Shown here piece after piece: positions 13,659 to 16,894 of a stretch of 64,000 nucleotides of DNA. This stretch comes from Acinetobacter sp. C32I (GTDB lineage Bacteria > Pseudomonadota > Gammaproteobacteria > Pseudomonadales > Moraxellaceae): NCBI RefSeq assembly GCF_023702715.1, contig NZ_CP098480.1, forward strand, positions 1,116,001-1,180,000, in the 5' to 3' direction. The first letter of the stretch is position 1. The number at the start of each line of letters is the position of its first letter. The position numbers and the translations under genes were made by a program. Below the pieces are notes generated by a model. It saw only the letters and a program-made list of their open reading frames with translations. It ran no database searches and was not told the origin of the DNA.

Positions 13659-14702
13659 TTATTTTTTATGTCGCATTTTTTCAGCAACATCCAATAAGAC
13701 TTGCGCTGTTTTATCCCAACCTAGACAGCCATCCGTAACCGACTGGCCATAGGTCATCTCGCAGGAAATTTTTTGATTGCCATCAACCAGATGACTTTCA
13801 ATCATCACACCACGCACTTTCGATTCAGCACGCTCTGCAATAATTTGCTGTAAAACCTGAGGCTGTAATAATGGATCTTTACCGCTATTACCATGACTAC
13901 AATCAATTACCAGTGCAGGTAATTGTTTATGTTTGAAATGCATGGCTTGAATCGAAGCCAAATCATAGTTGGTACCCTGATTTGAACCACGTAAAATTAA
14001 ATGCGGTAATGGATTACCTTCACTATGTAAAATCGCAGGCAAACCTTGCTGAGTCATCCCCAAGAATTGATGACCATGCAGTGCTGATTGAATCGCATCC
14101 AACGCAATTTGAATCGAACCATCAGTACCGTTTTTAAAGCCAATGCTGTATGGCATATGGCTGGCAATTTCACGATGAATTTGAGACTCGCTGGTACGCG
14201 CACCAATTGCGCCCCAAGCCAATAGGTCATCAAAATAACCTGTCGCCATTGGGCTTAAAATTTCGCTTGCGATTGGCAAACCTTTCTCGATTAGCTGCAA
14301 GTAAAGCTGACGAGATTTTTCTAAACCGAGTTGTAAATCTGATGATCCATCTAAATTTGGATCATATAAGAAACCTTTCCAGCCCACGGTTGTACGTGGT
14401 TTTTCGATATATGCACGCATAACAAGGAAAATCTGATCTTTAACCTGTTCTTGTAATTGTTGTAGGCGATCAGCATATTCAAGTACTGCAATAGGATCAT
14501 GAATCGAGCAAGGACCGGTAATCACCATTAAGCGATGATCATGTTCAGATAAAATATTCTGAATCGTTTGACGATGTTTTGAAATTTGCTGCGCTAAAGT
14601 GGCAGACAAGGGATACTGCGCTTTGAGTTGTGATGGCAAGCTAAGCATTGATTCTTTTGTATGTGTTTGTGGTTGTGTCAAAGCAGTATTTAAAGCATTC
14701 AT
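13659..14702 (-). CDS. aroG: 3-deoxy-7-phosphoheptulonate synthase (DAHP synthase, class I)
   Basis: A 347-residue enzyme condensing phosphoenolpyruvate and erythrose 4-phosphate, the first step of aromatic amino acid synthesis. TGPCSIHDP near residue 63, MRAYIEKPRTTVGWKG near residue 95, GARTSESQIHRE and IDCSHGNSGKDP are signature motifs of the AroF/AroG/AroH family. The start is the ATG at 14702, with AAAGGA eight bases upstream; a TTG two codons earlier is less likely. I cannot tell from sequence which amino acid feedback-inhibits it; the symbol aroG is a family-level choice. A 340-bp leader with two aromatic-rich short ORFs precedes it. Confidence 0.93.
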   Translation of the reverse strand: MNALNTALTQPQTHTKESMLSLPSQLKAQYPLSATLAQQISKHRQTIQNILSEHDHRLMVITGPCSIHDPIAVLEYADRLQQLQEQVKDQIFLVMRAYIEKPRTTVGWKGFLYDPNLDGSSDLQLGLEKSRQLYLQLIEKGLPIASEILSPMATGYFDDLLAWGAIGARTSESQIHREIASHMPYSIGFKNGTDGSIQIALDAIQSALHGHQFLGMTQQGLPAILHSEGNPLPHLILRGSNQGTNYDLASIQAMHFKHKQLPALVIDCSHGNSGKDPLLQPQVLQQIIAERAESKVRGVMIESHLVDGNQKISCEMTYGQSVTDGCLGWDKTAQVLLDVAEKMRHKK

Positions 14703-14715
14703 TTTCAATTCCTTT

Positions 14716-14737
14716 GGACTGGCCTTCTTCGCAGTCC
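14716..14737 (-). promoter_or_regulatory. Hairpin abutting the aroG Shine-Dalgarno
   Basis: On the minus strand GGACTG and CAGTCC form a 6-bp stem with a 10-base loop. The 3' arm is immediately followed by the AAAGGA ribosome site of aroG. The stop codon of the second leader ORF lies about 7 bases upstream of the 5' arm, so a ribosome finishing that ORF would disturb the hairpin. There is no U-tract, which suggests an effect on translation rather than termination; this is inference. Confidence 0.6.
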
Positions 14738-14743
14738 TATCAT

Positions 14744-14836
14744 TTATTTGAGCAAGTGTGATCTAAGCGATGTTGATTTTTTTGCAAAGTAAAACCAAGA
14801 AATCTTGCTAAAATATGAATAATTAAATGTATACAT
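14744..14836 (-). CDS. Second aroG leader peptide, 30 residues, aromatic-rich
   Basis: An ATG at 14836 with a strong Shine-Dalgarno (TAGGAG, 7-base spacing) opens a 30-codon ORF that is too short for standard gene calling. Nine of residues 2-17 are aromatic: Tyr2, Phe4, Tyr6, Tyr8, Phe9, Trp14, Phe15, Tyr16 and Phe17, including the run WFYF; the last 13 residues contain none. This composition is what is expected of a regulatory leader read by ribosomes to sense Phe, Tyr and Trp supply. It ends 41 bases before the aroG start and lies downstream of the terminator at 14871. Confidence 0.8.
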   Translation of the reverse strand: MYTFNYSYFSKISWFYFAKKSTSLRSHLLK

Positions 14837-14870
14837 GGTATTTCTCCTAAAATCCTGATTGTTAAAGCAT

Positions 14871-14900
14871 AAAAAAACCTGATCGGTGTTGCCGATCAGG
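14871..14900 (-). terminator. Intrinsic terminator (attenuator) in the aroG leader
   Basis: On the minus strand a perfect 9-bp stem, CCTGATCGG / CCGATCAGG, with a CAACA loop, is followed by seven T. It lies between the two leader ORFs and upstream of aroG. GGCAAC, spanning the 5' arm end and loop, is complementary to GTTGCC, which occurs twice upstream (just after leader ORF 1 and about 35 bases before the stem). Alternative pairing could therefore prevent terminator formation, the hallmark of attenuation. Confidence 0.88.
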
Positions 14901-14951
14901 TATTAACTGGTTGGGCAACCCTTTTGCTGCCCGAAACGCATCAGGCAACGA

Positions 14952-15005
14952 TCAATATTGCCAAAAGTAAAAGTATGCGTTGGTGTTTACAGTATGCTTT
15001 AACAT
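14952..15005 (-). CDS. First aroG leader peptide (MLKHTVNTNAYFYFWQY)
   Basis: A 17-codon ORF starting with ATG about 30 bases after the predicted transcription start and ending TGA at 14952. Five aromatic codons in a row (YFYFW) plus a final Tyr stand just before the stop, followed by alternative stem-forming sequences and a terminator. The architecture matches the pheL/trpL type of attenuation leader, here sensing all three aromatic amino acids. Its Shine-Dalgarno is weak, which is not unusual for leader ORFs. Short length makes the call depend on context rather than homology. Confidence 0.82.
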   Translation of the reverse strand: MLKHTVNTNAYFYFWQY

Positions 15006-15043
15006 ATTTATTTCAAATATCTAAAAAACGGTGTCTAACTATT

Positions 15044-15072
15044 AAATTACGCACTATTTCAGCATTTGACAA
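15044..15072 (-). promoter_or_regulatory. Promoter of the aroG leader
   Basis: Minus-strand TTGTCA (15067-15072) and TAATTT (15044-15049) separated by exactly 17 bases. The predicted start of transcription is near 15037, giving a short 5' lead-in before the first leader ORF. Confidence 0.7.
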
Positions 15073-15319
15073 GCACTTTTTATGTTTTTTTAATCATCTC
15101 TTCAAAATCTTAAAATTTGACCTTTCATCACTTCCCCCATAGAATAGTGTAAAAATAAACCAATTTGAGATCATGCCAATGAAGTAAGTTCTATTTTCAT
15201 CATCAAAGTTCATTTTTCTTTTTGATGTGCAAAATAGACTTAGCTATCGTTTAGCGCTGCTTTATTCCAAAACTTATCTCGATCTCTCTATTTTGCATAT
15301 CCTGTTTATGAGGTTTCTT

Positions 15320-16894
15320 ATGACTCAACAGGCATGTATTGTTTCCAACTTATCCCTTGAATTCGCACAGCGAATACACTTTGACTCACTTTGCTTTCAG
15401 CTTCCATTACATCAATTCACAGGATTGATTGGATGCAATGGCCAAGGGAAATCGCTATTGATGTCTCTTCTGCATGAACAGATAAAATTCAAGCTACCCT
15501 ATTCAGGCCAAATCTCATGGCAGTGTCCACATCAATATCTGGCTCAGCTTCAACGTGTACAAGCAGATACAATCGCTCAAGCCTTGCATATTGAGGATTT
15601 ATACCAATGCTTCAAACGCATCCAGCACGGTACTGCAGCTTTTGCCGATTATGACCAAGTCGAACATCTGTGGCATTTACCAACAGAATGGCAACAGCTT
15701 TTGCAAAGTGCGGATTTACCGATAGATCTTGATACACCTATTCAATATTTGAGTGAAGGCCAAAAAACCAAACTCGCACTGTGTCGCCTATTTCTACTCA
15801 AAGATCATTATCTATTACTGGATGAACCCAGTAATCACTTAGATACACGAGGACGAGAATGGTTGATTGAGCAAATGTCTCAACATCCTACAGGTGGGCT
15901 CATCATTAGCCACGATCGGCAACTACTGTCTCACGTACAGGGGATTTTTTCCTTAAATCAGCTGGGACTACATTATTATGGTGGCAATTATACGCTTTAT
16001 CTGCAGCAATATCAGCAACAAGTCGAATCACTTATACAAGCAGTGCAGCAAGAAAAACGTGAGTTAAAACAATTAAAGGAGCAGCAACATCATAGTCAGA
16101 TGAAAGCTCAAAAACGCAAAAAAGCGGGGGAAAAGTTAAGAGCCTCAGGATCCCAAGCACCCATCTTATTGGATGCCAAGAAAGAACAATCGGAGCAATC
16201 CCTTTCTCATCTACGCAAACAACAAAGTAAGCAGCTTGCAGATGCAAAAGATGAATTACAACAGAAGCAAATCCAACTGGAACATCTCAAATCACAATCT
16301 TTCGAATTTGCACATATAGCCAGAAAGTCAGGAGAAATCTTACGTTGTCACCAATTACAACTCGCTTATGCAAAGACAAATCCCATTAATCTTGCTATTA
16401 AGGCTGGAGAAAAATTGCGTTTACGTGGTGCAAATGGAACTGGCAAATCAACCTTATTAAAAACCCTTCAAGGTTTGATTCCACCACTTACAGGTGAGGT
16501 TTATTGCAAAGTAACTTCTACTTATCTTGACCAGAGGCTTTCGCTACTTAATGACACTATTTCAGCACTTGAATATTTACAGCATATTGATCCCGAACTT
16601 ACGGAACAACAAGGGCGAACCTTATTAGGCAACCTTCAAATTAGAAGAGATAAAGCACTTATGCCCATCTCCACCCTCAGTGGCGGTGAACGCTTAAAAG
16701 TGGCTTTGCTTGCTTTAAAACAACAGACTGTAGAGTTGTTACTTTTGGATGAACCCGAAAATCATCTCGATATCGAATCTCGTGAATTACTGGCTCAAGC
16801 AATTCATTCTTTTAACGGTGCGGTGATACTGGTGTCGCATGACGAAACTTTTGTTGAAGCATGCCGAATCACCACATCCTATGTCTTGACATAG
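15320..16894 (+). CDS. ABC-F family ATPase
   Basis: A 524-residue protein with two ATP-binding cassettes joined by a highly charged coiled-coil linker (about residues 230-310, rich in Lys, Gln and Glu) and no membrane segment, which defines the ABC-F class of ribosome-associated ATPases. Walker A loops are GCNGQGKS (near residue 43) and GANGTGKS (near 374); signature LSEGQ and LSGGE; Walker B LLLDEPSNHLD and LLLDEPENHLD. I chose the ATG at 15320 with GAGG seven bases upstream. Family roles include ribosome rescue and antibiotic resistance; which applies here is unknown. It ends inside a terminator. Confidence 0.92.
   Translation: MTQQACIVSNLSLEFAQRIHFDSLCFQLPLHQFTGLIGCNGQGKSLLMSLLHEQIKFKLPYSGQISWQCPHQYLAQLQRVQADTIAQALHIEDLYQCFKRIQHGTAAFADYDQVEHLWHLPTEWQQLLQSADLPIDLDTPIQYLSEGQKTKLALCRLFLLKDHYLLLDEPSNHLDTRGREWLIEQMSQHPTGGLIISHDRQLLSHVQGIFSLNQLGLHYYGGNYTLYLQQYQQQVESLIQAVQQEKRELKQLKEQQHHSQMKAQKRKKAGEKLRASGSQAPILLDAKKEQSEQSLSHLRKQQSKQLADAKDELQQKQIQLEHLKSQSFEFAHIARKSGEILRCHQLQLAYAKTNPINLAIKAGEKLRLRGANGTGKSTLLKTLQGLIPPLTGEVYCKVTSTYLDQRLSLLNDTISALEYLQHIDPELTEQQGRTLLGNLQIRRDKALMPISTLSGGERLKVALLALKQQTVELLLLDEPENHLDIESRELLAQAIHSFNGAVILVSHDETFVEACRITTSYVLT

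Follow-up and report, generated by a model that had tools for sequence, protein, structure and literature searches.

Two aromatic-codon leader ORFs flanking an intrinsic terminator upstream of a DAHP synthase gene in Acinetobacter: a candidate two-stage control element

Leader-peptide attenuation of aromatic operons is a classical mode of control, known for example from trpL and pheL of Escherichia coli. Here we analyzed the leader of a class I 3-deoxy-D-arabino-heptulosonate 7-phosphate (DAHP) synthase gene in Acinetobacter sp. C32I, located on the minus strand of a 64,000-nucleotide (nt) window of contig NZ_CP098480.1 to which all coordinates refer (Table 1). The enzyme belongs to the aroFGH family, and we use for its gene the label given in an earlier note on this DNA, aroG; the product matches Pfam PF00793, scores above the cut-off of TIGR00034 and below that of the AroG model, and has as its nearest PDB chain an enzyme named Tyr-sensitive. 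Like the trpL and pheL attenuators, the leader combines an open reading frame (ORF) carrying regulatory aromatic codons with alternative RNA pairings and an intrinsic terminator. Unlike them, it has five pairing segments rather than four, precedes a DAHP synthase gene, and places a second aromatic leader ORF between the terminator and the gene. We propose a two-stage leader, at a probability of roughly 0.46, in which ORF1 would attenuate transcription and ORF2 would control the translation of aroG, both in response to the supply of aromatic aminoacyl-tRNA.

Several described systems share parts of this arrangement. Two short ORFs also lie serially in the mgtCBR leader of Salmonella (mgtM and mgtP), where the available part of the account reports different signals (ATP and proline) and no recognized intrinsic terminator (PMC3641672). 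Two serial, selected ORFs are likewise found in Acinetobacter, whereas both of these carry aromatic codons, flank an intrinsic terminator and, as judged from codon content only, would not read two different signals. The yxjB leader of Bacillus subtilis, in the available text (PMC6851288), combines transcription termination and translational repression with leader-peptide stalling, a pairing of controls in one leader that resembles our proposal; stalling there is antibiotic-dependent, and that text names no second leader ORF. Stalling on a leader ORF that frees a downstream Shine-Dalgarno sequence, as proposed here, is also akin to ermC-type translational attenuation (PMC10219788, available part), from which the Acinetobacter leader would differ in responding to amino acid supply rather than to an antibiotic, with the sequestration itself a prediction. 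In the unrelated bacterium Acholeplasma, the uORFC-13-1 motif ahead of the DAHP synthase gene aroF likewise comprises a terminator and a predicted leader ORF that contains Phe codon(s); as far as the available text of PMC8632094 goes, one ORF is described there rather than a pair. In searches of the open-licence literature we recognized no account of a terminator with an aromatic leader ORF on either side; the ORF1 attenuator by itself may have been predicted before. The main text of an A. baumannii RNA interactome paper (PMC11472050) mentions no aroG, aroF, DAHP or leader peptide.

The arrangement is real, conserved and, in these searches, restricted to Acinetobacter. Scanning genome contigs yielded 55 Acinetobacter loci (the closest relatives having enzymes 98–99% identical), and further loci were fetched by place. 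The set used here has 94 loci with this enzyme type, repeats included, as when one genome was reached by two routes. Pattern searches recovered ORF1 (the pattern requiring Trp beside aromatics) in 94 of these and ORF2 (requiring six aromatics) in 91, with both carried by 75 distinct leaders. An aromatic ORF is nonetheless visible by eye in all three loci missed by the ORF2 pattern: a 27-codon ORF with its aromatics in the first half in L052 and L105 (A. apis), and a 55-codon ORF that extends over the aroG start in L110. Counted among the 91 is L070, in which ORF2 is frameshifted while its tail RNA and hairpin are intact, and A. baylyi (L039) also has the two-ORF arrangement. The two ORFs turn up throughout Acinetobacter with their aromatic cores conserved, so that the pair is not a product of chance. 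The conservation of aromatic codons that the earlier note had set as a test of its proposal held within Acinetobacter for both frames.

A covariance model of the ORF1 attenuator gave strong matches (E <= 1e-13) in 114 of 119 Acinetobacter genomes, the remaining five being G101, G119 and three of 65 to 91% completeness. In G101 and G119 the paralog was the only DAHP synthase seen, and this enzyme type was missing along with the attenuator. Weak second matches (33–35 bits), possibly to chance terminators, were seen in three Acinetobacter genomes (G186, G185 and G159). At 20 further loci recruited by the model, ORF1 and an aromatic ORF2 were present in all 20, of which 12 added 10 ORF2 peptides new to the first set, one was L070 again, and one (L156) has an ORF2 overlapping aroG; as these loci were selected via the attenuator, they are informative on ORF2 alone.

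This DAHP synthase type was found in 39 of 41 same-genus genomes in a search of 149 genomes of the same family (presumably Moraxellaceae), and the enzymes of other genera, among the matches listed, were ~46–51% identical, like the second copy of Acinetobacter. An order-wide model search under stricter filters (145 genomes, that of the window included) returned weak matches in 4 of the 144 others, at ~30–34 bits vs. 83–116 bits in the genus, and the ORF listings upstream of 21 paralogous DAHP synthase genes (22 loci) held no comparable ORF pair. We therefore rejected both a wider element of the order and a feature common to DAHP synthases. The comparison across wider Moraxellaceae that the earlier note had put forward gives no support beyond Acinetobacter, since the arrangement was not found outside the genus in the model search or upstream of the paralogs. 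A known RNA family was likewise rejected, the three Rfam hits being sub-threshold and none inside the leader.

ORF1 is very likely a transcription attenuator. This short ORF contains consecutive codons for the end products (genus core NAYYYFWQF(R/K); ratio of non-synonymous to synonymous divergence, pN/pS, 0.38, this and all later pN/pS values from 31 leaders), and between it and the gene lies a conserved intrinsic terminator with compensatory changes. A scan of positions 14400–15400 found one terminator-like site vs. 0.7 expected in shuffles, and a helix scan ranked the terminator top, with many G-U-rich helices beneath it. In alignment A2 (40 hand-picked leaders), 92.5% of cells were paired in the a:b stem and 99.7% in the d:e stem of the terminator, with 13 and 12 double-change cells, respectively. 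Both stems beat 500 shuffles on paired cells, double-change cells and covariation score, though their counts of pairs and of pair types did not, with the caveat that related sequences may exceed such shuffles without any structure. The covarying stems that the earlier note had named as support for its proposal are thus present within Acinetobacter (a:b, d:e and a third hairpin described below), and the complementarity it had noted between the terminator GGCAAC and two upstream GTTGCC copies was confirmed at 14949-14944 and 14919-14914.

The first stage would operate through the position of the ribosome on ORF1. A ribosome finishing ORF1 would cover segment a, which immediately follows the stop codon in 58 of 75 leaders, so that b pairs with c and the terminator can form from d and e. 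If the ribosome were instead held on the Tyr, Phe or Trp codons, a would be free to pair with b, and c would capture d, permitting read-through. We folded transcripts up to d with the ribosome represented as a mask, which could be parsed in 75 of 77 leaders (not in L056 and L107). With the ribosome at Trp, the mean predicted c:d pairing was 0.77 and b:c 0.08, while at the ORF1 stop these were 0.29 and 0.61, respectively; in the window's own leader, c:d fell from 0.75 at Trp to 0.00 at the stop. Pairing of c:d was higher at Trp than at the stop in 73 of 75 leaders (a gain >0.1 in 56 and >0.3 in 50). The alternative folds suggested by the earlier note exist and, at a gain >0.1, shift in the expected direction in 56 of 75 leaders, a description that does not extend to the A. 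calcoaceticus-baumannii group. The predicted folding response has the sign by which starvation would lead to read-through in the cell; the structure and conservation of the first stage are observed features of these leaders, from which we infer the response to amino acids.

By its pattern of variation, ORF2 behaves as a translated-type, selected frame, and we hold its role as a functional leader ORF to be very likely, with even more confidence than we hold attenuation by ORF1. Codons 2–17 encode nine aromatic residues, and both ORFs in the window contain Phe, Tyr and Trp codons (Trp is missing from ORF2 in 7 of 75 leaders). The distance from core to tail is a multiple of three in 66 of 66 measurable leaders (of 75), across five lengths, in contrast to the spacers on either side of ORF2, whose lengths show every residue modulo three. 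Selection is uneven along the frame, with pN/pS of 0.27 in the aromatic core, 0.71 before it, 0.66 in the linker and 1.19 in the last seven codons. Given that this last value coincides with the lowest synonymous divergence (pS 0.25), the tail is constrained at the RNA level. It keeps the rare codons CTC (46 of 59 distinct ORF2 sequences) and AGA (48 of 59), whose usage in the gene is 0.04 and 0.06, respectively, and in 41 of 47 the core motif has as its third codon AGC (usage 0.14), which pairs with GCT in the tail. Core:tail pairing was stronger than in synonymous recodings in 34 of 42 hand-picked leaders (mean z -0.81, standard error 0.16), which are not phylogenetically independent. Arrest by the nascent peptide, as in TnaC, was dropped as a candidate since the tail is not conserved as a peptide. 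We also dropped a pairing of the terminator 3' arm with GATCGG after ORF2, which showed no joint change by eye (34 of 77 leaders).

Between ORF2 and aroG lies a hairpin preceding the Shine-Dalgarno sequence (pre-SD hairpin, 14737-14716), which, together with the RNA-level constraint on the ORF2 tail, goes beyond the earlier note. It covaries in alignment A3, with 98.8% of cells paired and five double-change cells. This alignment holds 30 hand-picked leaders, namely 38 references minus the eight most divergent (L053, L054, L056, L103, L104, L107, L108 and L109), three of which lack the hairpin, and its results on this hairpin and on three further helices therefore describe the other lineages. 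Under a lax rule without a control, the hairpin was present in 74 of 77 leaders, 72 having arms of this kind and two (L052 and L110) having other arms, searched in a wider stretch. It begins 6 nt past the ORF2 stop in 46 of 56 distinct spacers. With the frameshifted L070 left out of the count, the distance from the ORF2 stop to the aroG start in 56 of 59 distinct spacers is 29–45 nt when the hairpin is counted, and subtracting it leaves 19.1 +- 1.9 nt.

On read-through transcripts, ORF2 would then govern the translation of aroG. A ribosome reaching the ORF2 tail and stop would disrupt the pairing within ORF2 and the pre-SD hairpin, upon which the Shine-Dalgarno region of aroG would pair with the freed stretch of aromatic codons; a ribosome stalled on the aromatic codons would block that pairing, leaving the Shine-Dalgarno sequence open. 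In this way, both stages would raise DAHP synthase upon a shortage of Phe, Tyr or Trp. Masked folding of 34 hand-picked leaders gave a predicted access to the aroG start of 0.46 with the ribosome on the aromatic codons vs. 0.36 with the ribosome on the tail, the former exceeding the latter in 29 of 34 leaders and 15 of 16 groups. In some lineages, among them the A. calcoaceticus-baumannii group, the aromatic codons show strong complementarity to the start region. A translation-level switch is therefore plausible and of the right sign, and ORF2 probably acts as a sensor on aroG at the level of translation, while the particular structural switch proposed is doubtful. The selection on the ORF2 frame is observed, and the mechanism of the second stage is what we infer; ORF2 would be a candidate second sensor, for which the structural model is weakly supported.

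A number of results weigh against the two-stage proposal. ORF1 has no clear Shine-Dalgarno sequence, and neither b:c (98.3% paired) nor c:d (89.9% paired) covaried beyond shuffles in A2. Ribosome position shifted c:d by <=0.1 in 19 of 75 leaders; among these is every one of the 13 parsed leaders from the A. calcoaceticus-baumannii group (L024-L032, L034, L085, L088 and L090), in which c:d was ~0.85 whatever the position, so that the equilibrium folding model leaves this group unexplained, and in L052, c:d was 0 at every position. For the second stage, the unoccupied RNA had a start access of 0.39, about as closed as the tail state. Synonymous recodings of ORF2 in 37 hand-picked leaders had the same start access on average (z of ~0 in the free and stalled states and -0.35 +- 0.20 at the stop), indicating that ORF2 codon choice is not tuned for start access. 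Complementarity between start region and core was ordinary across 40 hand-picked leaders, at a median percentile of 0.58 of 177 other start sites (<=0.06 in 7 of 40). None of the core:tail helix, the core:start-site helix and a third helix covaried beyond shuffles in A3, an unguided tree-based covariation scan returned no pair that passed its filters, and 9 of 75 leaders, chiefly those that diverge most, lack the CTnArATAA end of the tail. Given the unchanged access after recoding, a complementarity that is not genus-wide and a core:start helix without covariation, the structure of the switch is not established. The three hairpin-free spacers (L103, L104 and L108), with stop-to-start distances of 8, 16 and 17 nt, and the ORF2 frames of L110 and L156, which cross the aroG start codon, also fit better with translational coupling.

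Such coupling would keep the first stage, and ribosomes finishing ORF2 would open, or re-initiate at, aroG, with the aromatic run braking them. Expression of aroG would then require both transcriptional read-through and an aromatic charging that is not too low (a band-pass response). The short distance from the ORF2 stop to the aroG start throughout is better explained by coupling than by the switch, and the two overlapping leaders, which belong to divergent relatives (enzyme ~56–58% identical), have an aroG Shine-Dalgarno sequence that is weak by eye. However, most lineages have a good Shine-Dalgarno sequence of aroG's own, a biosynthetic gene would be expected to show the opposite sign unless a band-pass brings some benefit, and coupling offers no obvious reason for keeping the aromatic codons at their low pN/pS. 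We consider coupling unlikely on balance, though a serious contender. Less probable again is an effect of ORF2 on transcription elongation or mRNA survival (through Rho or RNase access) rather than on aroG initiation. Tandem leader ORFs without a recognized intrinsic terminator occur in Salmonella mgtCBR, for which a role of Rho is suggested as possible in the available part of PMC3641672, and the scan of 14400–15400 found no second terminator between ORF2 and aroG; yet just ~40 nt separate ORF2 from aroG, and the ORF2 tail and pre-SD hairpin are located at the start site.

Two further explanations deny ORF2 a regulatory role. Selection on the core at the peptide or codon level would also suit a small functional peptide, but the core is an aromatic run, the tail varies as a peptide and not as RNA, and ORF2 has one match in its own genome, beside aroG. 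Three ORF2 peptides searched against Pfam and NCBIfam gave no match, by which a known protein family for ORF2 was rejected, and we regard a peptide function as quite improbable. That ORF1 is the sole regulator and ORF2 a functionless, decayed copy could draw on the frameshift in L070, yet ORF2 is kept genus-wide and changes length in frame, leaving decay, with a very small residual chance, the least credible of these accounts.

Table 1. Features of the aroG leader and gene in the Acinetobacter sp. C32I window.
Feature	Position	Strand	Basis or remark
Promoter TTGTCA-N17-TAATTT	15072-15067 (TTGTCA), 15049-15044 (TAATTT)	-	Sequence reading; conserved pattern in 77-leader alignment
ORF1, leader peptide 1, MLKHTVNTNAYFYFWQY, stop TGA	14952..15005	-	Sequence; pattern match in 94/94 loci; pN/pS
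Segment a, TTGCCT	14943..14948	-	3 nt past ORF1 stop in the window
Segment b, GGGCA	14928..14932	-	Can pair with a or with c
Segment c, GGTTGCCC	14913..14920	-	Can pair with b or d
Segment d, CGGCAAC	14888..14894	-	Part of terminator 5' arm and loop; proposed antiterminator when paired with c
Intrinsic terminator, perfect 9-bp stem CCTGATCGG/CCGATCAGG (14900-14878) and T7 (14877-14871)	14871..14900	-	Sequence; covariation
ORF2 Shine-Dalgarno AGGAG; TTAGGAGAAA upstream of ORF2	14848-14844	-	Sequence
ORF2, leader peptide 2, 30 codons, MYTFNYSYFSKISWFYFAKKSTSLRSHLLK	14744..14836	-	Sequence; conservation
ORF2 aromatic core YFSKISWFYF, codons 8-17	14786..14815	-	pN/pS 0.27, 31 leaders
ORF2 tail and stop AGATCACACTTGCTCAAATAA, RNA-constrained; pairing possible with core TATTTTAGC	14744..14764	-	pN/pS, codon use
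Pre-SD hairpin GGACTG...CAGTCC, ORF2 stop to aroG Shine-Dalgarno	14716..14737	-	Covariation
aroG Shine-Dalgarno AAAGGAA	14709..14715	-	Sequence
Class I DAHP synthase, aroFGH family ("aroG"), ATG at 14702	13659..14702	-	PF00793, TIGR00034

The promoter, ORF1, the 9-bp terminator with its T7, ORF2 and aroG, as read in the earlier note, are all present where that note placed them. The promoter follows a pattern conserved in the alignment of 77 leaders (CTTGTcAA...GcGTA.tTT); it is absent from the list of a mechanical consensus promoter scan, and its second hexamer is a poor match. The divergent neighbor (15227-16894, plus strand) encodes a two-domain ABC protein, ABC-F ATPase-like by eye.

Returning to the two-stage proposal, we see an even chance that the same class of amino acids is read twice in series, at transcription and then at translation, in a manner that would be reinforcing or, if ORF2 is coupled to aroG, band-pass. 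In the latter case, DAHP synthase would be made solely at intermediate aromatic starvation. Given that A. baylyi, a laboratory species, carries the arrangement, the sign and level of each stage are directly measurable. ORF2 also provides a case of two kinds of selection within one short ORF, on codons or peptide in its first half and on RNA in its last codons. If the proposal holds, amino acid attenuation would be stackable, with two leader peptides for one class of signal placed around a terminator, and this stacking would sit at the entry of the shikimate pathway in a genus that includes the A. calcoaceticus-baumannii group.

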